The notes under the pieces: generated by a model
Told to the model about the DNA's origin: nothing
Seen by the model: the letters and a program-made list of their open reading frames with translations, nothing else
Databases searched by the model: none
Shown: positions 8,027 to 51,845 of the stretch, one piece after another
Layout: each line of letters begins with the position of its first letter
How positions within the stretch are numbered: the stretch's first letter is position 1
Position numbers and translations under genes: made by a program
From: Chryseobacterium arachidis
Lineage (GTDB): Bacteria; Bacteroidota; Bacteroidia; Flavobacteriales; Weeksellaceae
Reading direction: 5' to 3'
Assembly: GCF_900129245.1 (NCBI RefSeq)
Contig: NZ_FQUT01000014.1
Location: forward strand, 1 to 64,000
DNA: 64,000 bases

Positions 8027-8911
8027 ATGCTGATTAAAGTTTACGGAAGTGCCATTCATGGAGTTGCGGCACAGACCATTACAATCGAAGTAAATGTAGA
8101 TACAGGCGGAGTTGGCTATCATTTGGTAGGTCTTCCTGACAATGCCATTAAAGAAAGCAGCTACAGAATATCTGCAGCCCTTAAAAATGTGGGCTATAAA
8201 ATTCCGGGTAAGAAAATTACCATCAATATGGCTCCCGCAGACCTCAGGAAAGAAGGAGCCGCCTACGATTTAAGCATAGCCATTGGGATTCTTGCGGCTT
8301 CGGATCAGATTCTTGCCGAAAATATTCAGGATTATATTATTATGGGGGAGCTTTCTTTGGACGGAAGTTTACAGCCCATCCGGGGAGTTTTACCTATTGC
8401 CATTCAAGCTCGGGAAGAAGGTTTTAAAGGCATTATTTTACCCAAACAAAATACTCGGGAAGCCGCGATCGTTAATAATCTTGATGTATTTGCAGTAGAA
8501 AATATTAAAGAAGTGATCGATTTTTTTAATGAAGGAAAGCCACTCCAAAAAATAGTTTTGGACACCCGAAAAGAGTTTCAGGAAAAGATCAATGAGTTTC
8601 CGTTCGATTTTTCAGAAGTCAAGGGACAGGAAACAGCTAAAAGGGCAATGGAAGTTGCTGCCGCAGGCGGCCATAATATTATTCTCATTGGACCTCCCGG
8701 AAGCGGAAAAACAATGCTTGCTAAGAGAGTTCCAAGTATTTTACCGCCCCTTACTTTAAAAGAAGCTTTAGAAACCACCAAGATCCATTCTGTAGCCGGA
8801 AAGATGGGGACAGAGACTTCATTGATGACAGTAAGGCCTTTCCGGGCACCTCATCACACGATTTCAGATGTTGCACTTGTCGGCGGTGGTGTCAATTACA
8901 AAAGAAAATGA
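8027..8911 (+). pseudogene. comM: comM (yifB) 5' fragment, interrupted by transposon
   Basis: Residues 1-287 are ComM/YifB Mg-chelatase-like AAA ATPase: the N-terminal Lon-like domain, then Walker A GPPGSGKT and FRAPHHTISDVALVGGG. The transposon begins at 8890 and adds only a few foreign codons before the TGA at 8909-8911. Joining 8027-8889 to 20152-20824 restores an uninterrupted 511-aa ComM in frame. In other bacteria ComM is a branch-migration helicase that promotes integration during natural transformation. The fragment lacks Walker B and should be inactive. Confidence 0.95.
8885..8889 (+). repeat. Target-site duplication, left copy (GGTGG)
   Basis: GGTGG precedes the TGT that begins the element and is repeated at 20147-20151 after the closing ACA. 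Removing one copy plus 8890-20146 recreates the Val-Gly-Gly-Gly-Gly-Tyr-Pro stretch of ComM. Five base pairs is the Tn7-family duplication length. Confidence 0.92.
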
Positions 8912-8935
8912 TAATTTACAATACAAAATGATAAA
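8890..8935 (+). promoter_or_regulatory. Transposon left end with TnsB-site-like repeats
   Basis: After the terminal TGTCAATT, two 18-bp direct repeats lie 20 bp apart: ACAAAAGAAAATGATAAT (8898-8915) and ACAATACAAAATGATAAA (8918-8935). A weaker third may start at 8939. Nearly the same word occurs inverted at the right end, as expected for TnsB binding sites. Confidence 0.7.
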
Positions 8936-9292
8936 ATAACAAATAGAAGAAATGGCTGAAAATATTCTCCATCAAGAAATCTGCTTTTTAAAAATGAAAT
9001 GGTGAGTATACAGTTTTTAAATTATAATTTAGACAGGCTAAAACTTCTCAAAAGCCATTTAAAATATTAGAAATTTTTAGTAATTGTTGCCCACATATTT
9101 CCAAAAAATTTCAGCAATTTCGACACAAGCAAAAAAAGATGCATTTGCTATTCTCATGATTACAAACAAGTATAGATTCTATAATTTATTCATCTATGGT
9201 ATAAAGTATTGTTTTTTGAGATTCAATATTGTCATAGAGTTCTAATCTCCATTTCTACAATATAGTTCAATCTGTATCAAATTTTATATCAC
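8912..9292. other. Transposon left-end non-coding stretch
   Basis: About 380 bp of AT-rich DNA between the comM fragment's stop and the antitoxin remnant. Apart from the end repeats it holds only very short reading frames (17 codons at 8952 forward, 26 codons at 9077-9157 reverse) without recognisable family features. Confidence 0.5.
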
Positions 9293-9507
9293 ATGAAACC
9301 TCTAGTTCGCACATAAGCACAATACGTATTTTGGTAAAATTATTTCTATCCAGATTATTAAACCAAATAATTTAACAGTTGATAGAACTGCTAAACTTTT
9401 GGGTATTACACGAACTACCATGTCCAACATCGTCAATGGTAAAAGCGTAATCACTCTCAGTATGGCAATAAGTTTAATATTATCTTATTTTACAAATATG
9501 TATTAAT
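9293..9507 (+). pseudogene. HigA-like HTH antitoxin remnant
   Basis: An ATG at 9293 gives MKPLVRT and then a stop, but a neighbouring frame continues to 9507 and contains LTVDRTAKLLGITRTTMSNI followed by VNGKSVIT and MAISL. This is the helix-turn-helix pattern of HigA/VapI-type antitoxins. The start and the HTH lie in different frames, so a frameshift near 9314 is inferred. No toxin partner is recognisable upstream. It lies between the transposon's left end and the cargo operon. Confidence 0.45.
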
Positions 9508-9613
9508 AAAGTTTTAAATCTCAGTGTCATTAAAAAAGCCTGCTTTTTTTCATCTTTAGGACTGTTTGAGGGTAAAGTCATAATGAGTTAAGATAATGGA
9601 GGCTGTAATAAAT

Positions 9614-10408
9614 TTAAAAATGCTTTCTCACTGTAATATTTGAATTTGTATCGGTTGACAGTGTGCTTGACACATCGGCTCTCATTCTGTATTGTATTTG
9701 AATTTGAGTCCCTGCAGTCAGCACCCCCATCCAATATAAAGGCATATCTCCTTGAGCTCCTCCTGCACCAGTTCCATAATATGAAATAGCAAGTACTGTA
9801 GAATTTGATGCATTAAATAGCCTTGCCCCTAATGCCTTACTATTACCATTTGTCGTTGATAATCTTAGCGAAACATTTCCAAAAAATGAATACAATCCTG
9901 TTGTGGGAATTGTTAAGGTTCCCGTTGCATGGATATTTCCCACATCTAATTTTTCAGTTGTAAAATTCATTGTTGTCCAAGCTGAATAATTAGGAGTTAC
10001 ATAACTGGCGTTGACAACAGCCGGACTTCCAGCAAATAAGATCTGTGTTTTATTCTTGTTATTGATTTCTGCTCGAACATCTGATACCTCACCAATATTT
10101 GTCCACTGGGTGCCATCCCAAATATAATAAGTGTCTTTAATGACGTTATTTGGCGATGAGCCAGCATCCGATAAATTGTAAATCAGGGTGCCTTGTTCAG
10201 GGGAATTTGAAGATACGGTTACGGGAACTGTGGTGATGTCGTTAATATTCAACAACTGGACACGAGGAATAAGTAATCCTTTATTTGTGCTATATAAATC
10301 TAAAATAGTGCTCGGATCAGGATTACTTGTTCCTATACCCACTTGGGCGTATACGTTTATCTGTAAAAGTACAAATAAAAGAAAAGTATATGTTATTTGT
10401 GTTTTCAT
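9614..10408 (-). CDS. Transposon cargo: secreted VGIGT/C1q-like protein, copy 3
   Basis: 264 aa. Signal peptide (residues 1-21, ending VYAQ) followed at once by VGIGTSNPDPSTILDLYSTN, the N-terminal signature of many Bacteroidetes surface and tail-associated proteins. A short linker follows, then ~130 residues of beta strands (W, F and G at regular spacing; TIPTTGLYSFFGNVSLRL; LTAGTQIQIQYRM) resembling a C1q/TNF-like jelly roll. It is the last gene of a three-gene leftward operon, 1 nt from its neighbour. Function unknown; binding to a surface or glycan is a guess from the fold. Confidence 0.7.
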   Translation of the reverse strand: MKTQITYTFLLFVLLQINVYAQVGIGTSNPDPSTILDLYSTNKGLLIPRVQLLNINDITTVPVTVSSNSPEQGTLIYNLSDAGSSPNNVIKDTYYIWDGTQWTNIGEVSDVRAEINNKNKTQILFAGSPAVVNASYVTPNYSAWTTMNFTTEKLDVGNIHATGTLTIPTTGLYSFFGNVSLRLSTTNGNSKALGARLFNASNSTVLAISYYGTGAGGAQGDMPLYWMGVLTAGTQIQIQYRMRADVSSTLSTDTNSNITVRKHF

Positions 10409-10409
10409 A

Positions 10410-11168
10410 TTACTGATATTTATAAATGTTAAGTGTTCCTGTTTGTATTCTATAATTGTTGGCGGTATAGATGTATTGGAAAGTCAACAAATCATTTAGG
10501 GTCAAATTGGTAGTTAATATTGTTGTGGTATACATTCTATTATTAATGGTGTTATCTCTACCATATGATGTTGCCAAGCCTGATGCTCCTCTTAACAATG
10601 TATGTACAGTAGTGCCCCCATTATTTCCGGTATTGGACATTTCTGTAATAAATTCGATCATATACAATCCGTTACTTGGGGTAAGATATTTATTAGTTGA
10701 AATATTCCATCCTGAATATTTATCAAATAATATTTCAGCAGTTGTTAAAGTTAAATTTGTGAAACTGCCACCAGCTGCAGAGCCAGCCGCAATGATTGGT
10801 TTTTGGCCTATGGCAGCACTAAAAATAAGAAGAGGAATTTGTGAGGAGGCAATAATCTCTTCAGTGGAAGTGGGAGTTGCTTGAGAGCGATAAGTATTAT
10901 CGCTGCTCCAATATGTTATTCCTTTTGCAATATCATTGCCTATATCAGAATTTGTGTTATAAAGCATTACTCCAACCGCTGGATTAGAAATAGGATTTGT
11001 TATATCCGTTTTGTTCGTTACAGACAAGCTTGGAATTCTTAAAGCTTTGTTACCGGAATCAAGTTTTAACATGGCAGATTGGGAAGCAGAACTTGAGCCA
11101 ATCACAACTTGAGCATTTGTCAGAATAACAATGAACCCACATAAAAAAATAAATATTTTGCACATCAT
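10410..11168 (-). CDS. Transposon cargo: secreted VGIGT/C1q-like protein, copy 2
   Basis: 252 aa from the ATG at 11168; a longer frame upstream to 11231 would overlap the previous gene and place a basic stretch before the signal peptide. Signal peptide (MMCKIFIFLCGF...TNAQ) is followed by VVIGSSSASQSAMLKLDSGN, a diverged VGIGT head, and a C-terminal beta domain with LTPSNGLYMIEFITEMSNTG. It is paralogous to its two neighbours by layout, with clearly different sequence. It starts 4 bp after the stop of copy 1. Confidence 0.68.
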   Translation of the reverse strand: MMCKIFIFLCGFIVILTNAQVVIGSSSASQSAMLKLDSGNKALRIPSLSVTNKTDITNPISNPAVGVMLYNTNSDIGNDIAKGITYWSSDNTYRSQATPTSTEEIIASSQIPLLIFSAAIGQKPIIAAGSAAGGSFTNLTLTTAEILFDKYSGWNISTNKYLTPSNGLYMIEFITEMSNTGNNGGTTVHTLLRGASGLATSYGRDNTINNRMYTTTILTTNLTLNDLLTFQYIYTANNYRIQTGTLNIYKYQ

Positions 11169-11172
11169 TATG

Positions 11173-11925
11173 TTAATTATTTGAGATTTTAGAAATAGAG
11201 ACATTTGGATTTGTAATCTGATAAGCCGCATTGGATGATTGAGCTCTAAAAGTAATCAAATCATTAGCGGCAAGATTAACGGTACAAGTGCCTGAAACAC
11301 CTCCGTATTGGTAAACTTTTGAAGTACCATAGGTGCAAATTGCAGTTCCATTTTTTAATACATATACCATAGCGCCTCCTAATGTATCTCCCGATACGTT
11401 TCTTAGGTCGACATTGTATGAGATAACATAGCCACCAGCTTGTTGAATGGTATATCCAGTATAAGTAGTTGGTCCACCAAGTGCTCCGGGAGGGGAATCT
11501 TGGTATAACGTATTAAATGTCAAATTAGAAATAGTTCCTGCTGGTATACTTCCTGAAGCCGCCATATTGCTCGCTGCAAATACGGGAGTGATAAATGGAA
11601 TTTTTTCTACTTCAGTTTTTACTTCTTGTTTAGACCACATTTTTTCCCACATCGTTCCATTGTAAGCGTAGAGCCCCTTTGTAACAGCGGTATTTCCTGA
11701 ACTGGCGTTGGAGTTATTGTAAATAATGAAGCTGGTCTTAGGGTTAGGAATTGTTGTAATGTCAATGGTGGAAGTAAGTGAAACAATTGGTAATTGCATT
11801 CCTTTATTGGATGCTTTTACTTCTAAAATGGTTGAAGGATCTGGAGTTGATGTTCCAATCCCAACACTTCCGGTTTGCGCTTTAGTTACAGAAAACCAAA
11901 GAAATAGAACAATTGCTTTTTTCAT
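11173..11925 (-). CDS. Transposon cargo: secreted VGIGT/C1q-like protein, copy 1
   Basis: 250 aa, first gene of the leftward cargo operon. Signal peptide (residues 1-16, ending TKAQ), then SVGIGTSTPDPSTILEVKAS and IVSLTSTIDITTIPNP, closely matching copy 3. The last ~130 residues form a C1q/TNF-like beta pattern (IQQAGGYVISYNVDLRN, LAANDLITFRAQSS). No catalytic motif is visible. Three different paralogues in a row suggest an assembled or hetero-oligomeric surface product, which is inference. Confidence 0.7.
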   Translation of the reverse strand: MKKAIVLFLWFSVTKAQTGSVGIGTSTPDPSTILEVKASNKGMQLPIVSLTSTIDITTIPNPKTSFIIYNNSNASSGNTAVTKGLYAYNGTMWEKMWSKQEVKTEVEKIPFITPVFAASNMAASGSIPAGTISNLTFNTLYQDSPPGALGGPTTYTGYTIQQAGGYVISYNVDLRNVSGDTLGGAMVYVLKNGTAICTYGTSKVYQYGGVSGTCTVNLAANDLITFRAQSSNAAYQITNPNVSISKISNN

Positions 11926-12250
11926 TTGCTAATTTTGTTAAGGTTATAAAATGTGTAGTCGAGTGTTATCACTAAAATAAATTAGTGTAAGAGGAAAGTA
12001 CCTTTTTAATACAATAGCTTATTATTGTCTTAGTTTTAAATGAATAATATAGATTATATTGAAAAGAAAGTAGATTGTAAACTTTTTATTGTATCTTTTT
12101 AATTATTTGCAGATACTAAACTAAAATTAGCATTCGATAATAATAAATGAAAATATTATCTATCAATAAAATTTCATACAGTTTTCTGAATAAAAAGTTT
12201 ATTTAAACTAACCATCTAGAATGGTTTCCTAATTCATTAGATTAGATAAT
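11926..12250. other. AT-rich region upstream of the cargo operon
   Basis: 325 bp with no gene recognised. It must hold the cargo promoter, but no convincing TAnnTTTG element was found. Confidence 0.4.
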
Positions 12251-12359
12251 CTAATTGAACCATTTATACGCAAAGCTTTGTAGCACCATAGTAGCTATAC
12301 CAACTTGAGCTAAAGAATTACAAGCATAGATAATTATAATAAAATAAATGTTTTTTCAT
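12251..12359 (-). pseudogene. Broken fourth copy of the cargo gene (N-terminus only)
   Basis: The ATG at 12357-12359 is followed by six A; in that frame the gene stops after 13 codons. Reading as if there were five A gives a signal peptide (IIIIIYACNSLAQ) directly followed by VGIAT, the same signal-peptide-to-VGIGT junction as the three intact cargo genes. The similarity ends a few codons later and a TAG closes the frame at 12251. It is best explained as a truncated, frameshifted paralogue upstream of the live operon. Confidence 0.6.
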
Positions 12360-12637
12360 GTTGTTGTTGTTTTTAGAATCATTGTGTGTAATTATTTATT
12401 TCACAGTTTTTATTCATTAAAGATACCTATATTATCATTAATTACAAAAAAAAATAAAATTATTAATATATTATTGCAAAAATAATGTATTATTTTCTTT
12501 AACCACGATAAAAAGGTATCGATATTTGTCGTATAAATTGTCGATAAATATCTACTGTCCCAAAAGTTTTATGAGAAATACTAAGATTAATGGTATTTTC
12601 ATGTATCTTATTCTGAAATATGTCAGCAACATTTTTA

Positions 12638-12689
12638 CACATATAATAATTAACAACAATTGAACATTTATTGTTAATTATTATATGTG
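12638..12689. repeat. 22-bp near-perfect inverted repeat
   Basis: CACATATAATAATTAACAA begins the left arm (12638-12659), and the right arm (12668-12689) is its reverse complement with one mismatch. The loop is 8 nt. There is no T-run and no flanking gene end, so it is more likely a protein-binding or recombination site than a terminator. Confidence 0.8.
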
Positions 12690-12775
12690 ATTAAGTTTAA
12701 AATACACGAATAAATATTTTTAAGATCACATTTAAACAAGCTACAGTGGATATTTGTCAAATGAGCAATCACGTC

Positions 12776-12957
12776 TTATCAAAATTTCATTATCAAAAGC
12801 TTCTGATAAAGTCAGTTATCAAAAGTTAAACATAATCAAAAGTCAAAAATACACATTATTTAACTCGACAACTTGGTATTTCGACTTTTGATTATCATTA
12901 TTTTGCAAAGCAAATGCGAATTAGCAAAGTAAATGCAAAAAATTGCAAAGAAGATGC
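12776..12957. repeat. Iteron-like short repeat cluster
   Basis: TTATCAAAAG-type words occur at 12776 (lacking the final G), 12790, 12816 and 12833 (TAATCAAAAG), with an inverted copy near 12883-12893 that makes a 20-bp imperfect palindrome. They are followed by three direct repeats of GCAAAG-N-A-N-ATGC at 12905, 12924 and 12945. Spacings of 19-21 bp put the last three on one helical face. Confidence 0.55.
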
Positions 12958-13010
12958 AAAAATAATATATTTGAAATTTTAGTCTTATTCTTGTTGAGAT
13001 TATCGGTTCC

Positions 13011-13199
13011 TTATCGGATCAGAGGAAATTTGTTTTTCTTTCGTATGCTTACTTCTTTGTGAAGTTTTCGTCAATTAACTAGACTTTCTTTACAGATCCC
13101 CAATTCTTCAGCTACCGAGGATACATCGCCTCGCTGCTCACTTAAAGATACTGCTTGGATCTTAAACTCTAAACTGTAATTTTTTCTGATCTTTTTCAT
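13011..13199 (-). pseudogene. IS3-family orfA remnant
   Basis: From the ATG at 13197-13199 the frame reads MKKIRKNYSLEFKIQAVSLS, then EQRGDVSSVAEELGI, the helix-turn-helix start of IS3/IS150-type OrfA. A TGA at 13071-13073 stands where W is expected (VN-stop-RKLHKE), and the frame ends for good at 13011. No orfB follows. It is a decayed insertion sequence inside the transposon. Confidence 0.7.
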
Positions 13200-13272
13200 A
13201 CTCTTAAAGATAAAGAGTATAAGAATTGTGTCCTAACAAAGTTAGCAACTCCAGAATATACTTATATTATAA

Positions 13273-13836
13273 CTAGTGACTTTTATCAATACGATAAAAA
13301 GTAGCCTTACTAATACCTGCCTGTTTACATGCTTTATCTATTGGAATATTTTTATTATCATATAGATGTTTTGCATATTGATATTTTTCTATATTTGTGG
13401 GACTTGATCCCGTTGGTCTTCCCAATAGCTTTTTTCTTTTCCGTGCTCCTTCTAATCCAAACTTTGTTCTCTCACTGATTAAATTTCTTTCAAACTCAGC
13501 AACGGCTCCGAAAATTTGAATAATAAATTTACCATTAGCTGAAGTTGTATCGAACGCTGGTTCTGTTATACTTTTAAAAAAAACTCCTTTCTCATTAAAC
13601 TTCTCAATTAGATCAATCATGTTTTTTAATGAGCGAAAAATACGATCTGTTTTGTAAACCATAATTATATCATCCTTTCTTAAATAGGAAAGCATTTCAT
13701 TAAGACCAGTTCTATCCTCGCGAACACCACTAGCTATATCTGTAAAAATTTTTTCACATCCATTTTCTTTAAGCATTTCTATTTGCGTAGAAATATTCTG
13801 CTCGGAAGTTGAAACTCTGGCATAACCTACAGTCAT
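13273..13836 (-). CDS. Serine recombinase (resolvase/invertase, Pin-like)
   Basis: 187 aa, the size of small serine resolvases. N-terminal MTVGYARVSTSEQN carries the nucleophile S9; DRIFRSLKNMIDLI and the long E-helix with AVAEFERNLISERT follow. The C-terminal ~45 residues (GRPTG... then KACKQAGISKATFYRI) form the DNA-binding HTH. Such enzymes resolve cointegrates in the Tn5053/Tn402 branch of Tn7 relatives (TniR). It sits in the element next to a res-like repeat region and is probably part of the transposition machinery. A Pin-type invertase role is the alternative. Confidence 0.85.
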   Translation of the reverse strand: MTVGYARVSTSEQNISTQIEMLKENGCEKIFTDIASGVREDRTGLNEMLSYLRKDDIIMVYKTDRIFRSLKNMIDLIEKFNEKGVFFKSITEPAFDTTSANGKFIIQIFGAVAEFERNLISERTKFGLEGARKRKKLLGRPTGSSPTNIEKYQYAKHLYDNKNIPIDKACKQAGISKATFYRIDKSH

Positions 13837-13843
13837 AATTTTT

Positions 13844-13909
13844 CGTTTTAAAAAATGATCGTTTTATGATACTAAATAAAAATTTAGTTTTATGAAACAA
13901 AAATAGTAT
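13844..13909. promoter_or_regulatory. Candidate res site upstream of the recombinase
   Basis: The interval contains GTTTTATGA at 13861 and 13887 (direct repeat), CTAAAT/ATTTAG (13872-13887) around a 4-nt centre, and an outer ATACTA/TAGTAT pair (13869 and 13904). Nested inverted repeats beside a resolvase gene are typical of recombination sites, but the subsites cannot be defined by eye. Confidence 0.4.
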
Positions 13910-14038
13910 TATTTTCCGTCTCATTTAATTGTTTTGTTAAAAAGTGTTTTTTAAGACTACTTAATTATTTTTTTGATAAAGAAACACGTCATTACAATAT
14001 TTTTAATATTTTTATCATTATCTATTGTAAATCACGAT

Positions 14039-15757
14039 ATGTTACCAAAAAAAACACAAAATTTACCCCGGGCACTGAAACTTCGTCCATGGGTATATGA
14101 AGAAGCAAATAAAATAGAATTCAAGAATAAGTTCTGGTTTATATCATGGTTAGGCAAAAGTTATTATATAAATGACACTATTTATAGAGATGTGTATATT
14201 ACACTCTGTAATAATACGCACTTTAAATTTCAGAAAAATTCTAAAACATTTTGTGTTCAATTTCGGGAAGAATATACAATTAGACTCAAACAGGGAAATT
14301 ATTATGACTATTTAGGCAAATTTTTAAGCTCGGTATATAATCACGAAAATATTAGAATTAAAAATAATGTTCTGATAAGTAGAGAAAATAATGGGGCTAT
14401 TATAAATATTGACAATTTACTCGGGAAGGGGAGAACTTATTATCCTCTGAATAGTACAGAGATTTATGGAGATGTTGCATGTTATCTGGTAGATATTGAT
14501 AATAGTAAGTATATTATACCTATGAATGTAATCCAGTCATATTTTTATACACTGTCATCAATGACACTTTATAATTTGATATATGGCGTTTTCGTACCAG
14601 GCATCGTTAAGCCATATAAATTTGAAGAATATGCAGTTGTTGCGTTTAGATCTTCTCTGATAAGTACATTAGAAGCGAGAATATTAAGTAAGTTTTATTT
14701 CTTAAATGGTGTAGAGATTAAAAAGTTATACCAAATTCGTCGTACTTTTTTAAAAAATTTATTAAATAATAGAAAAAATAATCAGGAAGAAAAAGCCTAT
14801 ATAGATTATACACTACCATTTAAAAAAAATGTTCAGGTTGAAATGTCCCTGCATTACCATCCTGTTGATTTGGAAGAAAACATTAATATGGTTTATGCTA
14901 TCAGTAATATATTGTTACCTGCATATGGGTCATTATTTGAATCAGATAATTACATTTTAAGAGACGATGATAAAGTTTTATTCATAGATAATGAAGATAT
15001 TGTTAGTGAAGGAACAACATTGGGAATTCAACATCATTACAATGGGCAAGAAGTTTCTAACACACCTTTTACGAATAATGACGCTATCTTAAATGTTAAG
15101 GAAAATGATGAAGGCCCTAAGTTTTATGAATCACCGAGTATTTCTGATGCCTTACCTACGAAAATTAAAAATAGTGTTAGTTTTGAAAATAGCTTTGTCA
15201 GACATATTAATATGTATGATGAATTTATTTCCAGTCATAATAGTAATAGCGAAACAGGAGCCATAAATTTAATTTATGGACTGTCGAAAGGCAAAGATTA
15301 TATGCTTGCGATACTTTCAGTATTTGAATTATTGGAAAAATCAGCAGAATTTAAGTGTAAGTATATTTACTTGAAGAGACAGGAGACAAGCAAATTTTCT
15401 TATGATCCATTTAATTTTCAAGATAATGGCTCGATTTTGCTTTTTATGATTGAATTTAATGATAGCTGTTTTTGTATTATCGTAAGAAATAATAAATCAA
15501 ATAGAATAGGTATTATTAAACGATTAATAACTGGTGTTTTCGATGAAGAAAATGATGAGAAGCTGAAGTTAGGATTAATAAAGATTAGTCGGGATTATCA
15601 TTATAATTGGTCTAAACTAAAAACATCAAAGTTGAAAATTCACGATTTTATAGTTGTTGATGCTCTTAATAATAAAGAAAGAGATACTTTAGAAGAAACT
15701 GTTGAAAATTTGCACAAAAGAATCCTAAAAGGGATTAAAGATTCAGTAGAGAAATAA
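14039..15757 (+). CDS. Putative TnsE-like transposon targeting protein
   Basis: 572 aa from the ATG at 14039; the frame can be extended to a TTG at 13973, but that adds an unlikely hydrophobic head. It occupies the TnsE position, next to tniQ though convergent, with the last 23 bp overlapping. The N-terminal third is beta-rich; an acidic linker lies around residues 310-370. The final ~120 residues (ILLFMIEFNDSC, IKRLITGVFDEEND, then a W and a C-terminal helix) resemble in order my recollection of the Tn7 TnsE C-terminal domain. Identity is weak and a novel accessory protein is possible. No nuclease or ATPase motif is seen. Confidence 0.45.
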   Translation: MLPKKTQNLPRALKLRPWVYEEANKIEFKNKFWFISWLGKSYYINDTIYRDVYITLCNNTHFKFQKNSKTFCVQFREEYTIRLKQGNYYDYLGKFLSSVYNHENIRIKNNVLISRENNGAIINIDNLLGKGRTYYPLNSTEIYGDVACYLVDIDNSKYIIPMNVIQSYFYTLSSMTLYNLIYGVFVPGIVKPYKFEEYAVVAFRSSLISTLEARILSKFYFLNGVEIKKLYQIRRTFLKNLLNNRKNNQEEKAYIDYTLPFKKNVQVEMSLHYHPVDLEENINMVYAISNILLPAYGSLFESDNYILRDDDKVLFIDNEDIVSEGTTLGIQHHYNGQEVSNTPFTNNDAILNVKENDEGPKFYESPSISDALPTKIKNSVSFENSFVRHINMYDEFISSHNSNSETGAINLIYGLSKGKDYMLAILSVFELLEKSAEFKCKYIYLKRQETSKFSYDPFNFQDNGSILLFMIEFNDSCFCIIVRNNKSNRIGIIKRLITGVFDEENDEKLKLGLIKISRDYHYNWSKLKTSKLKIHDFIVVDALNNKERDTLEETVENLHKRILKGIKDSVEK

Positions 15758-16715
15758 GCCAATAATCAATATCATGACTATAAGTTGAAAGATAAGATTT
15801 TGATAACTTGAAATAGCCTAATTCCTCTTGAATATTTCCAATATCTGTTAGGAACTTATAGATAACAGGAAGTGTTTCCTGTCTTTCTTCCAATGACCAA
15901 AAACCCACTTCATTATTTAATTGTGACAGCTTTATATTATACTTATTAGTTAAAAGATCATTTAAATTCCTATTAAACTTATTTGCTTGTGACCCTCTTG
16001 CAGATCTACACAATAAAATAAGTCCATTTACAAAGGAAAATGAATAATTAGTGAATTGATTATATCCCATTTTTAATGTTATATCCATAAATTTCTGATA
16101 TTGGAGTTCAGCATTTGAAGGATTTGCCAACTCAATTTTTGCCAAGTCAATTTCACAGTTCCAGCATTTTGAAAATGGGATATGTACATTTGGTACTGAT
16201 TGATTTCCGCTATTGTATATTTTATGATATGAAATAGGCTGTTGGCATTTTGGGCATCTGTCAATAAGTTGAGACTTACATTTACAGCAAGCAATAGTGG
16301 TAAATAATCTCCACTCTTTTTTATAATAAGGAAAAGAAGCTAAACATTTTGGACAGCACATTGTGCCAAATCTTTTTCTGTTTCTATGATTAAGACCAAG
16401 ACTTAAAATACGACTTTTTCTCTTTGATTGATCAGTGAAGTTTTCGTAATACGATGTTAAAAATAAATTTTCTATCCTTTTTCTAGATAATGGTGTGTGT
16501 TCATAAAGAAAATCCGTAAGATATGTTGGTTTTAGATAATCTATATCCCTGCCAAAAATGGGAGCATTATATCCAAAATTATTTTTAATAAATGTCAATG
16601 GTTTCACATAGTGGTTGATTGCAAGTCTACAATACCAAGAACTAAAAAGTTCGTTATTCTCAGGACTTATATATGCCGGGAATATATTTTTTCTATACTT
16701 TTTAATATAGACCAC
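15735..16715 (-). CDS. tniQ: TniQ/TnsD family target-site selector
   Basis: 326 aa beginning at a GTG that overlaps the tnsC stop codon by one base. The TniQ head (FPAYISPENNELFSSWYCRL) is followed by zinc-binding cysteines: CCPKC, CCKCK, RCPKC and CWNC between about residues 119 and 187. The helical C-terminal region is about as long as in short TniQ proteins and much shorter than Tn7 TnsD. In this family it recognises the attachment site and recruits TnsC, so it is the likely reader of comM. It is the last gene of the tns operon. Confidence 0.88.
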   Translation of the reverse strand: MVYIKKYRKNIFPAYISPENNELFSSWYCRLAINHYVKPLTFIKNNFGYNAPIFGRDIDYLKPTYLTDFLYEHTPLSRKRIENLFLTSYYENFTDQSKRKSRILSLGLNHRNRKRFGTMCCPKCLASFPYYKKEWRLFTTIACCKCKSQLIDRCPKCQQPISYHKIYNSGNQSVPNVHIPFSKCWNCEIDLAKIELANPSNAELQYQKFMDITLKMGYNQFTNYSFSFVNGLILLCRSARGSQANKFNRNLNDLLTNKYNIKLSQLNNEVGFWSLEERQETLPVIYKFLTDIGNIQEELGYFKLSKSYLSTYSHDIDYWLISLLNL

Positions 16716-17602
16716 TAAGCAAAATACCTTTTTTTTCTATCTTGGGGAGATATGTAATCAATATTTAAAAGAATTTCTTTTGTTATTTTTTCTTCTCCGC
16801 TTTTTATAGCTTGAATACTACATAATTCTAATATTCTAGCTACTTCACCAATTAAACCGTCACTCATTGCTAAAAGTTTAATTACCATTGAATTTTCTGC
16901 AAGCATTGATTCTTTTCTAAGAGGGATTAATGCTTCAAAGCTAACTAAAAGACGTTTAAATTCAAGATCATTTGACCATTTGGGAAGAACACGTGGCTCA
17001 AAGCGATTAGCGAGTTGTTGGTCACTCTGAATAACATTGAAGGCTAACATTGTTCCTGCACAGATAATAGGGATTTGTAAGTCATTTGACAAATGCTTTA
17101 TTACATTTAGAAATTTTCTTTGTTTTGTAGGTGTTCCTGCTAAAACATGATGTATTTCGTCTATTATCAATATTTTAGTTTGTAATTCAATAAGCATTTT
17201 CTTTACTCGCAAATATCTTAAATCTAACTTCTCAGATGTTTTATAAGGAGCGAATATATGCTCAAGAATTGCGTTATAAAATCTCCTTTCATCTGGTTCA
17301 GGTGGGGCTTGCACCATAATAACGGGATTAATGACACTTCCTGTCTTTGAATCAAATGAAGCTTCATATTTTTGATTAAACTTATTCAAAATTGCCGTTT
17401 TACCATTATTTGATTCGCCTACTAACAAAAGATTTGTCATTCTGGTACTTTTAGGGTAGGTCATTAACTCTTCCATCCTATTAACAATTTTTGTTGCCTG
17501 ACTGTAACCTATCCACTTAGGATACCTGCATGAAGATATCCTTTGGGATTCGGTAGAACTTTCTACAAATTCTTTAGTATTTTTTGTTAAATGTTTCATC
17601 AT
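16715..17602 (-). CDS. tnsC: TnsC/TniB-type AAA+ transposition regulator
   Basis: 295 aa. Walker A is GESNNGKT, Walker B is ILIIDEIHH, and sensor-type residues lie in IICAGTMLAF and QLANRFEPRVLPKW. The string of motifs and the length match TniB of Tn5053/Tn402 and Tn6022-type elements more than the 555-aa Tn7 TnsC. It links target recognition by TniQ to the transposase. It overlaps the end of tnsB by 29 bp (MM start; the second Met at 17599 is equally possible). Confidence 0.93.
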   Translation of the reverse strand: MMKHLTKNTKEFVESSTESQRISSCRYPKWIGYSQATKIVNRMEELMTYPKSTRMTNLLLVGESNNGKTAILNKFNQKYEASFDSKTGSVINPVIMVQAPPEPDERRFYNAILEHIFAPYKTSEKLDLRYLRVKKMLIELQTKILIIDEIHHVLAGTPTKQRKFLNVIKHLSNDLQIPIICAGTMLAFNVIQSDQQLANRFEPRVLPKWSNDLEFKRLLVSFEALIPLRKESMLAENSMVIKLLAMSDGLIGEVARILELCSIQAIKSGEEKITKEILLNIDYISPQDRKKRYFA

Positions 17603-19400
17603 CTAAATCTTCAAAAGGTATAATAACTTCAATTTCCTGAACGTCCGATTTTAATTTGTTTAATATAAACTCAGGCTCTTTATTTTTATAATCAAAAATC
17701 TGAGTTTGTCTTCTTTCTTTTTTTGTTTTTGAAATCGAATTTCTTTCAATAGTGCTTAATTCTTTAAATGCTTCGAAAATATTTTCTTCGCTAATCTCTT
17801 TGTTTCTGTCTTTTACTTTTTTTAGTGCATCTCTATACTCCCATATGGAGATAGCCGGATGGGTAGCATTCCTAAATGGAATATCATAATATTGTTCAGT
17901 CTGAGGATCAAGAAAATAAATTATACTTATATCCCGGGGATCTCTTTTAAAAATATAACCACCCTTATCTTTTCTATGAATATGAGGTCTTAATACATCA
18001 TCATAATAATAAAGATGATCAATAACCACTCCATATTCTTGGACTGATCTTTCAACATAAGGCATAAAGTCTAATCTTGTTCTTCTAATGTCGTTTATTC
18101 TTGGAAGAATGCCTCTACCAGAAATATTTTCATTCCCTATAATTCCGTCTTCGTATTTTTTTAGTGGGGACACACCTAAGGAGGAATGAATTCTCGTATG
18201 ATAGATTTTTGTTATATAGGTAAGTAGCCACCGCTCAAATTCGGCTAAAGTAAAAGAGGATTTTTCTTCACTCTTATAATTTTTTCTTTCTTGTTCATTA
18301 GAAAAAGTTGTACCGGGGAGATTATGGATTTCTTTTGAGAAGGTTCCAAGCAATCTTTCTATATGACCTCCGTAATGTGGTGTAGCAACTGGACGGTATT
18401 TCAACGAAATTCCATAATTATCACAAGCATCTTTTAACATTTTGCCATGAAATTCCTTTGCATTATCGAGATGTAAGCAATCCATTACACCCCAACACGG
18501 CCAATGTGCTGACACTCCAATGCGTTCCATCCACAATTCTTTAGGTAAGATTGAATTTGAAATGCACATTCCTGTACCTATTGCACCTGGAGGATCAAAA
18601 GATAGATAAATACCAACAACCATTCTGCTATATACATCTATTGCGACGGTAATCCAAGGCCGTTTATATGCTTTTCTTTCTAATTCATCAACTAAAATTA
18701 TGTCTAACAGAGTGTGGTCTATTTGAACAATTGATAATGGATAGGTAGCTTCCTCATAATGTGATTTTATTGGTTCATATTTATATCTAGCTTCCTTAAT
18801 TCCAAATCTCTTTTTTATTTTTTCTTCATCGGAAACGCATTTAATTCTATTTCTGATTGTGTTATCGTGGGGCGAAGTTATACCCAAATCGTGGCATGCA
18901 ATTTTTATTTCTCTAATAACCTTTGTAATAGATTTTCTATTTTGGTTCAAATAAACAGAATTTATCTTATCAGAAATAATAGCTTCTTGCTGATCTGTAA
19001 GTCTACTTTTCCCTTCTCCTCCTGTTTTCTTTTTTCCTGCTAACGATGATACAGTCTGTCCTGTATCATAAAGCTTCAGCCATCTGTAGATAGTTGGAAC
19101 ACTTACATTGTTATCAGAAGCAACTTTATTTATAAATGATAAGTCTCCGCGAGCTGAAAGTAAAGGCTTAATAATGTTAAATCGATCTTTGGCCTTCTCC
19201 CAATCTTTATCAGTCAGAATTTCTAATGGTGTACTCGCTGAATCAGTAAAAGGAGTAATATCTTTTACAGAAACTGTATGTATAATATTTGATAGAATTT
19301 CTGAGATAGAAACAATAGATGTACTTATTATTTTAACAATAATACATTCTTTATTATCATAAATAACTTTTTCTCCTTTAGAAATATATGTTCTATTCAT
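17574..19400 (-). CDS. tnsB: TnsB/TniA-type DDE transposase
   Basis: 608 aa. Region 95-150 is an HTH segment (VPTIYRWLKLYDTG). The rve/RNase-H core follows with D228 in VQIDHT, D312 in CLHLDNAKEF and E348 in GGHIERL, a D-35-E spacing typical of TnsB and IntI-like transposases. A Mu-type C-terminal beta-barrel follows. The protein joins the 3' ends of the element to the target. The gene starts 1 nt after the tnsA stop, indicating coupled translation. The active site looks intact. Confidence 0.95.
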   Translation of the reverse strand: MNRTYISKGEKVIYDNKECIIVKIISTSIVSISEILSNIIHTVSVKDITPFTDSASTPLEILTDKDWEKAKDRFNIIKPLLSARGDLSFINKVASDNNVSVPTIYRWLKLYDTGQTVSSLAGKKKTGGEGKSRLTDQQEAIISDKINSVYLNQNRKSITKVIREIKIACHDLGITSPHDNTIRNRIKCVSDEEKIKKRFGIKEARYKYEPIKSHYEEATYPLSIVQIDHTLLDIILVDELERKAYKRPWITVAIDVYSRMVVGIYLSFDPPGAIGTGMCISNSILPKELWMERIGVSAHWPCWGVMDCLHLDNAKEFHGKMLKDACDNYGISLKYRPVATPHYGGHIERLLGTFSKEIHNLPGTTFSNEQERKNYKSEEKSSFTLAEFERWLLTYITKIYHTRIHSSLGVSPLKKYEDGIIGNENISGRGILPRINDIRRTRLDFMPYVERSVQEYGVVIDHLYYYDDVLRPHIHRKDKGGYIFKRDPRDISIIYFLDPQTEQYYDIPFRNATHPAISIWEYRDALKKVKDRNKEISEENIFEAFKELSTIERNSISKTKKERRQTQIFDYKNKEPEFILNKLKSDVQEIEVIIPFEDLDDETFNKKY

Positions 19401-19401
19401 A

Positions 19402-20058
19402 TTAGGACCATATTATTGTATTGAGAGATAGTTTTTCCTCTCGATTAAAATTAAGTAATTTACCATAAACTAAATACCAGGTAACATATAAAATTTCTGC
19501 TTTTCGTTCAAATGTTTTTCCTAATTCTTCCAAAAGTTGCTTTATGGTTAATCTTTTAAATTTATTTACAGTTTCACAAATCATATGAATATCCACGTCA
19601 TTTATAAATTTCCCCTTATTATGATAGGTGCTTAAGAACATATAATTGTACAATAAATTTGTATTTATTTCATGTTCTCTCAAGATTTGATAATTAATTT
19701 TATTTGTTTGCAAGAGCTTTTCAATTTCTTGAAGTTCTTGATCATCAATTAAATGTTTATTTAAAATGATCAGTTTTTCTCGATCATTTTCATACTTAAC
19801 GTAAAAGTCAGGAATAAATTCCCTAATTGATTTTTTGTAAAAGTAGTTAATCTTGAAAGGCTGCTCACAATAACTAACTATACTATTATCGTTCTCTAAT
19901 ATATGCATATAGTTTCTTGTCCAATAGTGGGGGACTTTCTTTTCAGGATGCTTCTGAATAATGAGCGAATCTGTGTTTAAGAGAACGTTTTTGAAATCTA
20001 TCTCGTGAGTCTTTTTGTAACTTATTATCACCATGTTCTGTAAATTTTTAAAGTACAT
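19402..20058 (-). CDS. tnsA: TnsA-like endonuclease subunit, probably catalytically inactive
   Basis: 218 aa (a start at 20034 is also possible). The TnsA nuclease core is clear: WTRNYMHILEND then CEQPF, followed by REFIPDFYVKY and LIILNKHL. In active TnsA the first block begins L-E-R-D with a catalytic Glu; here that Glu is Thr. The second acidic or Gln position before the catalytic Lys is Leu here; the Asp of PDF and the Lys remain. The C-terminal half keeps the helical TnsC-binding region. It is first in the operon, close to the right end. In Tn7, loss of TnsA nuclease turns cut-and-paste into cointegrate formation. Confidence 0.85.
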   Translation of the reverse strand: MYFKNLQNMVIISYKKTHEIDFKNVLLNTDSLIIQKHPEKKVPHYWTRNYMHILENDNSIVSYCEQPFKINYFYKKSIREFIPDFYVKYENDREKLIILNKHLIDDQELQEIEKLLQTNKINYQILREHEINTNLLYNYMFLSTYHNKGKFINDVDIHMICETVNKFKRLTIKQLLEELGKTFERKAEILYVTWYLVYGKLLNFNREEKLSLNTIIWS

Positions 20059-20146
20059 GATTTATAAATTGCAAATGATTATCATCTTCTTTTGTGAAAA
20101 TAATAGATTTTTTGCCAAATTTTCTCATGTACTTTACAAATTTACA
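20024..20146 (-). promoter_or_regulatory. Transposon right end with TnsB-site-like repeats and internal inverted terminus
   Basis: Read from 20146 inward, the end is TGTAAATT followed by a weak repeat (20138-20121). A strong copy of the left-end word, ACAAAAGAAGATGATAAT, occupies 20095-20078, and a weaker one, ACAGAACATGGTGATAAT, 20041-20024. In addition the outer 22 bp (20125-20146) recur inverted at 20039-20060 with one mismatch. Confidence 0.7.
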
Positions 20147-20164
20147 GGTGGCGGTTATCCACAA
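20137..20164 (-). promoter_or_regulatory. Possible hybrid promoter driving the tns operon
   Basis: On the minus strand TAAATTTG (20144-20137) lies at the very end of the element and TTG (20164-20162) lies 17 nt upstream in comM. The spacing is two shorter than the consensus 19, so this is tentative. If real, the target gene supplies the -33 box. Confidence 0.3.
20147..20151 (+). repeat. Target-site duplication, right copy (GGTGG)
   Basis: GGTGG follows the terminal ACA of the element and is immediately followed by CGGTTATCC, the continuation of comM. It matches 8885-8889 exactly. Confidence 0.92.
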
Positions 20165-20824
20165 CCTGGAGAAATTTCTCTGGCTCATAACGGCGTTTTA
20201 TTTTTAGATGAAATGCCCGAATTCAAAAGAACAGTTCTGGAAGTGATGCGGCAGCCTTTGGAAGACCGTGAAGTGACTATTTCCCGAGCCCGATTTACGG
20301 TTAATTATCCTGCAAGTTTTATGCTGGTAGCATCCATGAACCCAAGTCCGAGCGGTTTTTTTCCGGATGATCCTAACAATACATCGTCTGCTTATGAAAT
20401 GCAAAGATACATGAGCAAGCTTTCAGGGCCGCTTCTGGATAGAATCGATATCCATATCGAAGTGCAGAAAGTGGAGTTTGAACAGCTGGCAGAAAGAAGA
20501 AAAGGTGAAAAAAGTGAAGATATCAGAAAGCGTGTTTTAATTGCACGTGAAATACAAAGGGAACGATATAAAGATTTAAAAATCAGCTATAATGCTCAAA
20601 TTGGTCCCAAGGAAATTGAAAAGTTTTGTGAATTGGATGAATCTTCTTTTACTCTGATCAAAATGGCAATGGAAAAACTCAATCTTTCCGCCAGAGCTTA
20701 TGACAGAATTCTAAAAGTTGCAAGAACCATTGCCGATCTTGATGAGTCTGAAAGCATTTTATCAAATCATGTATCTGAAGCGATACAATACAGAAGCCTT
20801 GACAGGGAATTCTGGAATGCCTAA
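20152..20824 (+). pseudogene. comM: comM (yifB) 3' fragment
   Basis: Continues ComM from GGGYPQPGEISLAHNG through Walker B (LFLDEMPEF), the sensor and the C-terminal Mg-chelatase domain (LNLSARAYDRILKVARTIAD) to the normal stop. With 8027-8889 it makes the 511-aa protein. By chance or otherwise, the frame is open back into the transposon to an ATG at 20033, so a 263-aa hybrid could be translated. It would lack Walker A. Confidence 0.95.
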
Positions 20825-50735: not shown

Positions 50736-51845
50736 TCATATTGCTAAAAATTGTCTCCCTGAAAATGATTTTACTTTCCCTAAAAGTTCCAATTCGAGAA
50801 TTACCGGTAAAATTTTGTGTGAAGAAAGATCCGTTTTTTCAATAATATCATCTAAGCTGATCTGAGGATTTTCTGTAATAATCTTAAAGATTAACTCCTG
50901 ACCGTCCGTAAGTTGAATAGCCACTTCACTGCGGGGAAATAATTCTTCTATTGTTGTACGGGGTTTATCAAGAGAGAGATTGTCTATAAGATCTTTAATC
51001 GTAGAAATTGCTGCTGCTTTATTCTGAAAAATAAGATGATTACAGCCCTGGCTTTGCTTATCGGTAATTTTTCCTGGCAAGGCAAACACCTCCCGATTGT
51101 ACATATTGGCAAAAGTAGCGGTACTGATAGATCCGCCGCCAAATGCCGTTTCCACAACGATTGTGGAAGGAGAAATGCCGGCCACGACACGATTTCGCTG
51201 TATAAAATTTTCCCGGTCGGGCTTTCTTGATGAATTAAATTCCGTAAACAATGCACCGCCTTCTTCAAGAATTTTTTCTGATAATTTTCTGTTTTTGGCA
51301 GGATATAAAATATGAAATCCGTGCGCCAATACAGCAGCAGTTGGGATCTGATGACGAATTGACTGCTCGTGAACTTCTTTATCCACACCCAATGCCAGAC
51401 CGCTTACGGAAATGTACTGACAGGATTTTGTCTCTTCAAAAAAATCGTGGATAAACTGCTTGCCGTAGGAAGTCATATTCCTTGTTCCGACAATACTTAC
51501 TTTCTGTTTAGAATGATCAAAATGTCCTTTTTGATAAAGAATGGCCGGAGCATCATCGCATTCGTGCAGCAATTTTGGAAGTTGCTGAAGGTGTCTGAGA
51601 TTAATTTCAACATTATGGTTTTCGCAGAATTTCAGCTCTTTTTCTGCAAATTTCAAATGCTCAGGATTTCCGATATCGGAAACCATTTTCTTTCCGAAGC
51701 CGTCGAGTTTTTTATATTCTTTTGGGACGTTTTCCCATGCATTTTTTGCATTTCCAAAGGTGCGGACAAGCTTATGGAAATTGATATCGCCTATTAGATT
51801 ACATTCGCGCAAAGCGATCGAGTAAAGATGTTCTTCAGAATACAT
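50736..51845 (-). CDS. dprA: DNA-processing protein DprA
   Basis: 369 aa from the ATG at 51845; a GTG at 51860 is the alternative. N-terminal helical region (LREC...LGNAKNAWENVP), the Rossmann-like DprA core with SIVGTRNMTSYGK, ISVSGLALGVD and ENFIQRNRVVAGIS, and a C-terminal winged helix (ISLDDIIEKTDL). DprA loads RecA on incoming single-stranded DNA in transformation. It is intact, in contrast to the disrupted comM. Confidence 0.94.
   Translation of the reverse strand: MYSEEHLYSIALRECNLIGDINFHKLVRTFGNAKNAWENVPKEYKKLDGFGKKMVSDIGNPEHLKFAEKELKFCENHNVEINLRHLQQLPKLLHECDDAPAILYQKGHFDHSKQKVSIVGTRNMTSYGKQFIHDFFEETKSCQYISVSGLALGVDKEVHEQSIRHQIPTAAVLAHGFHILYPAKNRKLSEKILEEGGALFTEFNSSRKPDRENFIQRNRVVAGISPSTIVVETAFGGGSISTATFANMYNREVFALPGKITDKQSQGCNHLIFQNKAAAISTIKDLIDNLSLDKPRTTIEELFPRSEVAIQLTDGQELIFKIITENPQISLDDIIEKTDLSSHKILPVILELELLGKVKSFSGRQFLAI

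Follow-up and report, generated by a model that had tools for sequence, protein, structure and literature searches.

A comM-specific Tn7-like transposon in Chryseobacterium arachidis and repeated one-sided deletions of comM among its relatives

A Tn7-Like Element Interrupts comM

The natural transformation gene comM is interrupted by a Tn7-like transposon in the 64,000 nt stretch of Chryseobacterium arachidis DNA analysed here (contig NZ_FQUT01000014.1, positions 1 to 64,000; hereafter the window). The 5′ part of comM (8027..8889, plus strand) comprises codons 1–287 and part of 288 and includes Walker A, the 3′ part (20147..20824, plus strand) includes Walker B, and the TIGR00368/ComM match is split in the genome. 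At the left junction the target-site duplication GGTGG (8885–8889) is followed by the element from 8890, opening with TGTCAATTAC. At the right junction the element closes with ...AAATTTACA at 20146, and the second copy of GGTGG follows at 20147–20151. The element thus spans 8890–20146 (11,257 bp), has the form TGT...ACA and has a G+C content of 30.3% vs. 34–36% in the flanks. Fusing 8027–8889 to 20152–20824 yields 1536 bp in a single frame, encoding 511 aa plus a stop, with no inner stop. In an alignment of residues 280–310, all 31 intact comM proteins from the same taxonomic family (loci L058–L087 and L088) lack indels over the join. The residues there read ...VALVGGG/GYPQPGEISLAHNGVLFLDE in the window (the slash marks the join) and ...VGGGSYPQPGEI in almost every relative. 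The insertion site is preceded by Walker A (GPPGSGKT) and followed, about 45–50 bp further on, by Walker B (VLFLDE).

A preliminary description, made from the letters of the window, had placed a complete Tn7-like transposon with exact ends and a GGTGG duplication at 8885–20151, between the two Walker motifs, and had predicted that its removal restores a 511-codon comM like that of empty sites in relatives. The junctions were confirmed to the base, the joined flanks form the expected frame at the expected place, and the intact relatives have the predicted empty form. The word complete holds for the ends and the gene set but not for TnsA, which looks catalytically dead (see below).

The left end (LE; 8890..8964, plus strand) carries two repeats resembling TnsB sites (8898–8914 and 8918–8934) and matches an LE profile, among whose building sequences is the LE of the window itself. 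The right end (RE; 20058..20146, minus strand), closing with ...TTTACAAATTTACA, carries one such repeat (20079–20095) and has inverted arms at 20038–20060 and 20125–20147. The 17-mer ACAAAAGAARATGATAA, a likely TnsB site, occurs without mismatch at 8898 (plus strand) and 20079 (minus strand) and with two mismatches at 8918 (plus strand). Its seven matches at up to three mismatches are a modest excess over the 3.0 expected, as 5 of 100 shuffles also reach seven. The case for a TnsB site therefore rests on the exact copies, inverted relative to each other, that stand one at either end. A Tn7-like transposon is expected to have TGT...ACA termini with TnsB-site repeats in inverted orientation and a 5-bp duplication, as seen here.

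Genes Carried by the Element

From the right end, the minus strand encodes TnsA, TnsB, TnsC and TniQ. A convergent open reading frame (ORF) of 594 aa follows, and then a serine recombinase and three cargo ORFs. TnsA (19402..20058, minus strand, 218 aa) has lost its catalytic glutamate and ExK signature and matches PF08722 just below cut-off (E 1.7e-5). The DDE transposase TnsB (17574..19400, minus strand, 608 aa) matches the PADLOC TnsB profile (E 8.2e-39) and Mu-transpos_C at cut-off, and is the single TnsB of this family in the genome. The TnsC/TniB AAA ATPase (16715..17602, minus strand, 295 aa) matches PF05621 (E 8e-70). TniQ (15735..16715, minus strand, 326 aa; PF06527, E 1.1e-13) consists of the core only, without a TnsD-type C-terminal extension. 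The convergent ORF (13973..15757, plus strand), read from a TTG, encodes a probable TnsE homologue, as the best structural matches of its AlphaFold2 model are TnsE C-terminal domains.

These genes agree with the definition of a Tn7-like element as TnsB and TnsC with TnsA and/or TniQ (PMC11406308; papers are cited here by accession). Together with the ends and the duplication, they support the Tn7-like identity and comM target of the preliminary description. No unassigned ORF of the size of TnsF is present within 8890–20146, so a TnsF in an operon with the short TniQ was not found. No Cas effector occurs among the nine ORFs scanned, which sets the element apart from the CRISPR-associated type.

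The small serine recombinase (13273..13836, minus strand, 187 aa) has Resolvase and HTH_7 domains. The cargo (9614..11925, minus strand) consists of three overlapping or adjacent, mutually similar ORFs of 264, 273 and 250 aa, the third of which weakly resembles the BclA C-terminal domain, below the Pfam cut-off. The cargo is separated from the serine recombinase by an AT-rich gap, which contains a 25-nt inverted repeat (12638–12689) that is 92% complementary and has a 2-base loop.

Related Elements Occupy the Same Site in comM

TniQ was found in 27 of 320 genomes of the taxonomic family: 26 belong to the genus of the window, which was sampled with 173 genomes, and one, a fragment, to another genus. 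None of the 26 genus genomes has a full-length comM match, and all 26 have the 3′ part of comM beyond the TnsA end. The right end falls within positions 853–862 of the joined comM, a stretch of 10 bp, in 25 of them, as befits an element with a specific attachment site and a fixed orientation. The insertion is not a matter of chance, because the related elements of the 25 other genomes all lie within comM. We are certain that the window holds a Tn7-like element specific for comM. A split comM lacking element ends would have spoken against the preliminary description; the other TniQ-bearing genomes of the genus do have ends in comM, apart from G030, in which the left end was not found, and G170, which is at a contig end.

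By TnsB, the elements fall into subfamilies i (the window, G029, G113, G108, and G103), ii (G053, G107, and G152), iii (G021, G030, G064, G079, and G155), iv (G134, G185, G065, G087, and G105) and v (G083, G034, G019, G136, G037, G161, G131, and G170). The TnsB tree, which places G170 in subfamily v, omits G065 and G136 with their broken TnsB; both were placed by BLAST and by their ends. Among ORFs of at least 90 aa, only TnsA, TnsB, TnsC, TniQ and the 594-aa family are common to the genus elements.

A set of 31 named loci was also considered: 11 from Chryseobacterium, one from Elizabethkingia and 19 others that we examined. In 10 of the 19, the 3′ part of comM from codons 282–290 on lies on the TnsA side within ∼3 kb of tnsB. 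The hosts are Tenacibaculum, two Marinifilum, a Bacteroidetes metagenome-assembled genome, Flavobacterium, Aquimarina, Ancylomarina, Pedobacter and two Undibacterium, the last of which we take to be Betaproteobacteria. An Aliarcobacter locus adjoins a comM-like gene that is matched nearly end to end, and no comM was seen in the DNA examined around eight of the 19 loci.

The elements are mosaic. The serine recombinase cluster is present in 14 of the 26 elements. The protein, ∼84–92% identical between copies, is shared by subfamilies i and iv and by two elements of subfamily iii, G155 and (as a fragment only) G064; its position varies, and it seems to move between elements. G108 (L033) and G064 (L118/L145) share 3,667 bp from the left end at 98.8% identity while their cores belong to different subfamilies, and the identity ends inside the serine recombinase gene. 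Extra or foreign left ends occur inside the elements of the window, G185 (L045) and G037 (L121). The one in the window (12900..12964, plus strand; profile LEC, E 6.3e-15) is a relic from a different subfamily (v) that has lost its terminal bases. These internal ends record occupants that succeeded one another at the same site in comM.

The gene is also disrupted in other ways. An unrelated type of element interrupts comM ∼20 bp upstream of the Tn7-like site at loci L131–L142 (genomes G028, G043, G094, G117, G176, G180, G200, G251, and G273). All nine genomes carry a long recombinase gene (615–670 aa), located at the left junction in the three where its position is known, and the two recombinases examined are large serine recombinases (Resolvase, Recombinase, and Zn ribbon). 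As Tn7-like and large-serine-recombinase elements both interrupt it, comM is a hotspot for two integrase classes. In G117 (L136) an extra copy of comM codons 1–68 lies ∼1 kb before the interrupted gene. Without any inserted element, comM is apparently frame-broken in G054 (L143) and internally deleted in G158 (L144).

A Probable TnsE and the Recognition of comM

The 594-aa protein has no match in Pfam, NCBIfam or PADLOC. A profile of its family returned nothing relevant from Pfam and PDB sequences, and single-sequence PDB searches with this protein and with TnsA gave nothing useful. Its AlphaFold2 model has a mean pLDDT of 59, the ten-residue blocks from residue 491 on mostly reaching 68–86. 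For residues 427–594 the three best structural matches are the TnsE C-terminal domain (9d5l, Z 8.9; 5d17, Z 8.8; 5d16, Z 8.5; rmsd 3.8–4.7 over 132–141 aligned residues), followed by an unrelated fold at Z 7.2; these scores are modest, as unrelated models often reach Z 7–8. In Foldseek the top five ranks are all taken by TnsE domains, though weakly (best E 0.13). Residues 125–314 resemble OB/SSB-type folds (Z 4.7–6.6), which matches the TnsE layout of SSB-like domains ahead of the known C-terminal domain (PMC10293859). Tn6022 likewise bears tnsE on the opposite strand (PMC10293859), and TnsE is almost universal in comM-targeting elements (PMC11406308). Based on the fold matches, the layout and this near-universality, TnsE is the best name for the protein, which probably is a TnsE. 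TnsF-type folds were absent among the structural matches of the model, which is no proof of their absence.

Relatives of this protein are encoded beside tniQ, or one gene off in subfamily v, in 24 elements; the gene is broken in G065, and the G170 contig ends before it, and both are omitted from the family alignment (A1). The alignment hints at a start further in than the TTG. A profile of the TnsE-like proteins of subfamilies i–iii matches those of iv (E 5.9e-10) and v (E 9.8e-8).

The TniQ model (pLDDT 80) matches the I-F3 TniQ core (9gs9; Z 13.7, rmsd 3.5, 245 aligned residues). Its 326 aa align with residues 19–322 of the 462-residue TnsD chain (8v32; Z 12.8, rmsd 6.3), and the C-terminal DNA-binding extension of TnsD in Tn7 proper is missing. 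A short TniQ pairs with a separate selector, which is TnsF in Tn6022 (PMC10293859). With no TnsF in the element, the reader of comM must be TnsE, a host factor or TniQ itself. The Pedobacter and the two Undibacterium relatives occupy the same comM loop, and no TnsE of this family was detected in ∼21 kb there; for this reason TniQ is favoured as the reader. An RNA guide was ruled out, as the best match between element and attachment site (14 bases) lies within the range of 60 shuffles (mean 12.5, maximum 17).

The TnsE of Tn7 gives no site-specific insertion, which counts against TnsE as the selector. We find it rather unlikely that TnsE or an unseen factor, and not TniQ, reads comM. Such a reader would fit the core-only size of TniQ, which marks separate-selector elements in PMC10293859, and the TnsE-like gene kept intact near tniQ in 24 elements and broken in G065. 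However, Tn6022 has a TnsE and yet needs TnsF (PMC10293859), and the Pedobacter and Undibacterium relatives share the loop in spite of having no TnsE of this family detected in the ∼21 kb.

The tniQ gene is split at the same place into overlapping ORFs of 139 and 200 aa at L055, L056 and L057 (G037, G161, and G131, subfamily v), which may be an old break that the three have in common or a gene that works as two pieces. The TniQ alignment (A5) omits these three broken genes and that of G029, as well as the tniQ of G065, whose frame is intact.

One-Sided Deletions at the Left End

Left junctions could be resolved for 24 elements of the genus, leaving out G030, where neither 5′ comM nor a left end was found, and G170. 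Eleven retain the whole 5′ half of comM, and 13 end 99–674 bp early (median 226), these being counts of genomes and not of independent lineages. At all 13 shortened junctions the LE begins exactly with TGT, flush on comM, and at none is the right 5-mer repeated. A perfect 5-bp repeat was found in 9 of the 23 elements tested (all but G136), all with an undeleted 5′ half. The undeleted G065 has a near-miss repeat, and in G136 GTGGG is seen by eye on both sides. Loss of comM occurred 13 times on the left vs. once on the right (p 0.002), and shortened junctions make up 13 of 17 in subfamilies i–iv (without G030) vs. 0 of 7 in subfamily v (p 0.00095), kinship being ignored in both tests. At least six changes between the deleted and undeleted states are needed on the TnsB tree.

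Three pairs of near-identical elements have cores 97–98.5% identical in hosts whose comM is 76–80% alike, and their left junctions differ. In G053/G107 (core 98.1%, left 6 kb 97%, comM 3′ parts 79.7% alike) the junctions lie at 755 and 626, in G108/G103 (core 98.5%, comM 76.0%) at 740 and 608, and one of G029/G113 has a complete 5′ comM. We read G053/G107 and G108/G103 as insertions that are recent and independent of each other. As near-identical elements in different species thus have different left junctions, the deletions are recent and repeated. The left end is always intact, which points to joints made by the transposase rather than to decay.

Outside the genus we compared the genomes of 10 of 11 loci, one with an unsplit comM (L165, Marinifilum caeruleilacunae, was left out). 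Nine have a split comM with both parts, five complete and four shortened (Tenacibaculum, Marinifilum N1E240, Flavobacterium, and Aquimarina). The LE is flush on comM in three of the four; in Flavobacterium ZT3R18, whose comM is shortened, the left end was not identified. The lack of deletions below 99 bp would arise by chance with a probability of 0.003 (exponential) or 0.13 (uniform), a post hoc and only suggestive result from n = 17 including the four outside cases.

That every shortened comM reflects draft assembly was ruled out, as left junctions are shortened in G103 and G087 too, whose genomes each form a single contig. The missing comM pieces were not found elsewhere in the 41 genomes searched (E 1e-6; many are drafts), a search that may be insensitive for the shortest pieces (33–40 codons).

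We propose that in the relatives the integrated left end often acts again. Its 3′ end would be joined to nearby comM, and the 99–674 bp up to the original site would be deleted while the right end stays. The main rival to this second strand transfer is that two insertions into one comM, the second of them upstream within the 5′ half, were followed by homologous recombination between the direct repeats, removing one copy together with the intervening comM. This would account for the lost duplication, and both the mosaic G108/G064 elements and the foreign or extra left ends in the window, G185 and G037 suggest that successive occupants meet at the locus. It needs, however, a second, off-site insertion whose orientation never varies; in no genome of the 26 with TniQ does comM hold two elements separated by a piece of the gene, and the compared parts of G053 and G107 are collinear. 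Target immunity, which is established for Tn7, should moreover block a second identical copy, and we regard the two-insertion route as improbable on balance.

Slightly less probable is that the shortened junctions arise at first insertion, the left end being joined in error to a strand position further off and the intervening DNA being trimmed. Such an error would need no later step and would explain a fixed right end, a variable left junction and an intact element end, but 99–674 bp is far from the 5-bp stagger of the TnsB strand-transfer complex, and subfamily v, at the same site, shows no case in seven.

TnsA and the Mode of Transposition

We take the TnsA residues considered here to be the equivalents of the catalytic E63, D114 and K132 of Tn7. 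All five aligned TnsA proteins of subfamily i have IxN in place of the ExK motif, and the four that span the FESxLERD helix have lost its two glutamates to other residues. ExK is kept in 20 of the 21 TnsA proteins of the other subfamilies, the remaining one being a fragment (for G134 the aligned TnsA is a second, distant copy). The tnsA frame is open in four of the five members of subfamily i and broken in G029. In that genome (L035) tnsA and tniQ are both broken despite a perfect duplication, and in its relative G113, with a core 97% identical, they are unbroken.

Within subfamily i the dN/dS of tnsA is 0.10–0.39 vs. 0.09–0.15 elsewhere, some dS values being saturated. These ratios argue for a retained, perhaps structural, function of TnsA under some relaxation. 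The TnsA of the window looks catalytically dead, lacking the residues that mark the cut-and-paste branch, and the element is therefore probably not a plain cut-and-paste Tn7. This suggests replicative transposition in its subfamily, a mode predicted where TnsA is absent and a recombinase is present (PMC8649781). An active TnsA, with the element moving as a plain cut-and-paste transposon, is very unlikely: the PF08722 match just below cut-off, the kept PDF aspartate, the open frame in four of five members and the dN/dS values would agree with it, but the replacement of the FESxLERD glutamates (4/4) and of an ExK that is kept nearly everywhere else (20/21) does not.

A Model for Insertion and Deletion

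Taken together, the element is a comM-specific Tn7-like transposon of a Bacteroidota branch, for which we consider a copy-out mode, and in its relatives a second transfer of the left end, probable. TniQ, alone or with a partner, would mark the conserved comM stretch near Walker B, and TnsC would couple it to TnsB. TnsB would then insert the right end into the GGG loop, at a set distance upstream, with the left end joined 5 bp from it, which would give rise to the duplication. TnsE presumably gives a second choice of targets (replicating DNA and plasmids). In the subfamily of the window, copy-out would proceed via a cointegrate, and either the serine recombinase or recombination by the host would resolve it.

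Several observations weigh against this explanation. The window itself has no deletion, intermediates of a second strand transfer were not seen, and G021 has lost comM on both sides (on the right up to position 1315). The TnsE assignment depends on a low-confidence model and modest fold scores. The serine recombinase is also found with intact TnsA (subfamilies iii and iv) and is absent in ii, and its co-occurrence with intact TnsA makes the link between recombinase and replicative transposition weak. Subfamilies ii, iii and iv, in which TnsA retains ExK, have deletions as well, so the dead TnsA does not explain them; by the same subfamilies, both the dead TnsA and the serine recombinase were ruled out as the cause of the left deletions.

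A bolder form of the explanation is that after integration the left end regularly re-attacks the same chromosome one-ended, with the right end kept at the attachment site, trimming and locking its landing site, and that TniQ itself finds comM without TnsF. We offer this as a tentative possibility. If true, the deletion would bar restoration of comM by precise loss of the element and so lock the insertion in.

As comM is a natural transformation gene, elements that break it may protect themselves from removal. AbaR insertion in comM lowers transformation in Acinetobacter baumannii, and the interrupted comM of two strains works again after removal of the island (PMC7508600). Riemerella is said to lose transformation when comM is deleted, a statement for which a paper and unpublished data are cited (PMC8383284). 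The genome of the window has genes of the ComEC and DprA families, and it is plausible that losing ComM reduces transformation in this host or benefits the element. The dprA homologue (DNA_processg_A) at 51012–51626 lies in the same window as comM.

The same codons are used in several Bacteroidota genera and two Undibacterium, and as the genus elements use comM without TnsF, the finding of comM by TniQ becomes directly testable. The repeated one-sided deletions, around cores that are 97–98.5% identical, seem to record in nature an unusual second left-end reaction. The retained TnsA, apparently deficient in cutting, would parallel in nature the active-site mutants of TnsA to which PMC8649781 refers. 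The deletions and this TnsA are relevant to Tn7-like insertion tools, in which flank deletions and cointegrates are unwanted.

Comparison With Known Systems

The targeting of comM, TnsE in such elements and Bacteroidetes hosts in the TnsB clade of Tn6022 have been published (PMC10293859, PMC11406308, PMC8649781). A literature search that covered few subscription papers returned nothing on comM targeting without TnsF, a dead TnsA beside TnsE or left-end deletions. AbaR and other elements in comM are described in PMC7253598 and PMC11472951, and the parts consulted mention no such deletions.

Tsy elements, which combine an unrelated tyrosine recombinase with a TnsF-like protein, share the comM target (PMC10293859); none was recognised among the loci examined, in which no search was aimed at them. 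Replicative elements of the Tn5053/Tn402 type and the TnsA-less V-K CRISPR-associated transposons (CASTs) resemble the element in predicted transposition without 5′ cutting and in the presence of a serine recombinase. They differ in that the element keeps a TnsA protein and that its recombinase is only weakly linked to a replicative mode. Tn7 shares TnsA, TnsB and TnsC, a TniQ-domain protein, TnsE, TGT...ACA ends, the 5-bp duplication and a right end nearest to the recognised site, whereas its target is glmS instead of comM and the TniQ of the window lacks the C-terminal extension of TnsD.

The closest likeness is to Tn6022/AbaR of Acinetobacter, with TnsA, TnsB, TnsC, a short TniQ, TnsE on the opposite strand (in the window by a modest fold match) and insertion in comM near Walker B (PMC10293859). 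The preliminary description had pointed to this shared target, which is borne out, and to a different gene complement. The latter stands for the missing TnsF, the comM selector of Tn6022, but not for TnsA, TnsB, TnsC, TniQ and TnsE, which are all components of the Tn6022 type (PMC10293859). TnsB of the window is 36.7–41.5% identical to the Acinetobacter plasmid copies listed, which are not shown to be Tn6022. TniQ has 326 aa in the window vs. 369 aa in Tn6022, and the element of the window has lost the TnsA signature. Finally, flanking comM was lost at 13 of 24 junctions here but in neither of two A. baumannii strains (PMC7508600).

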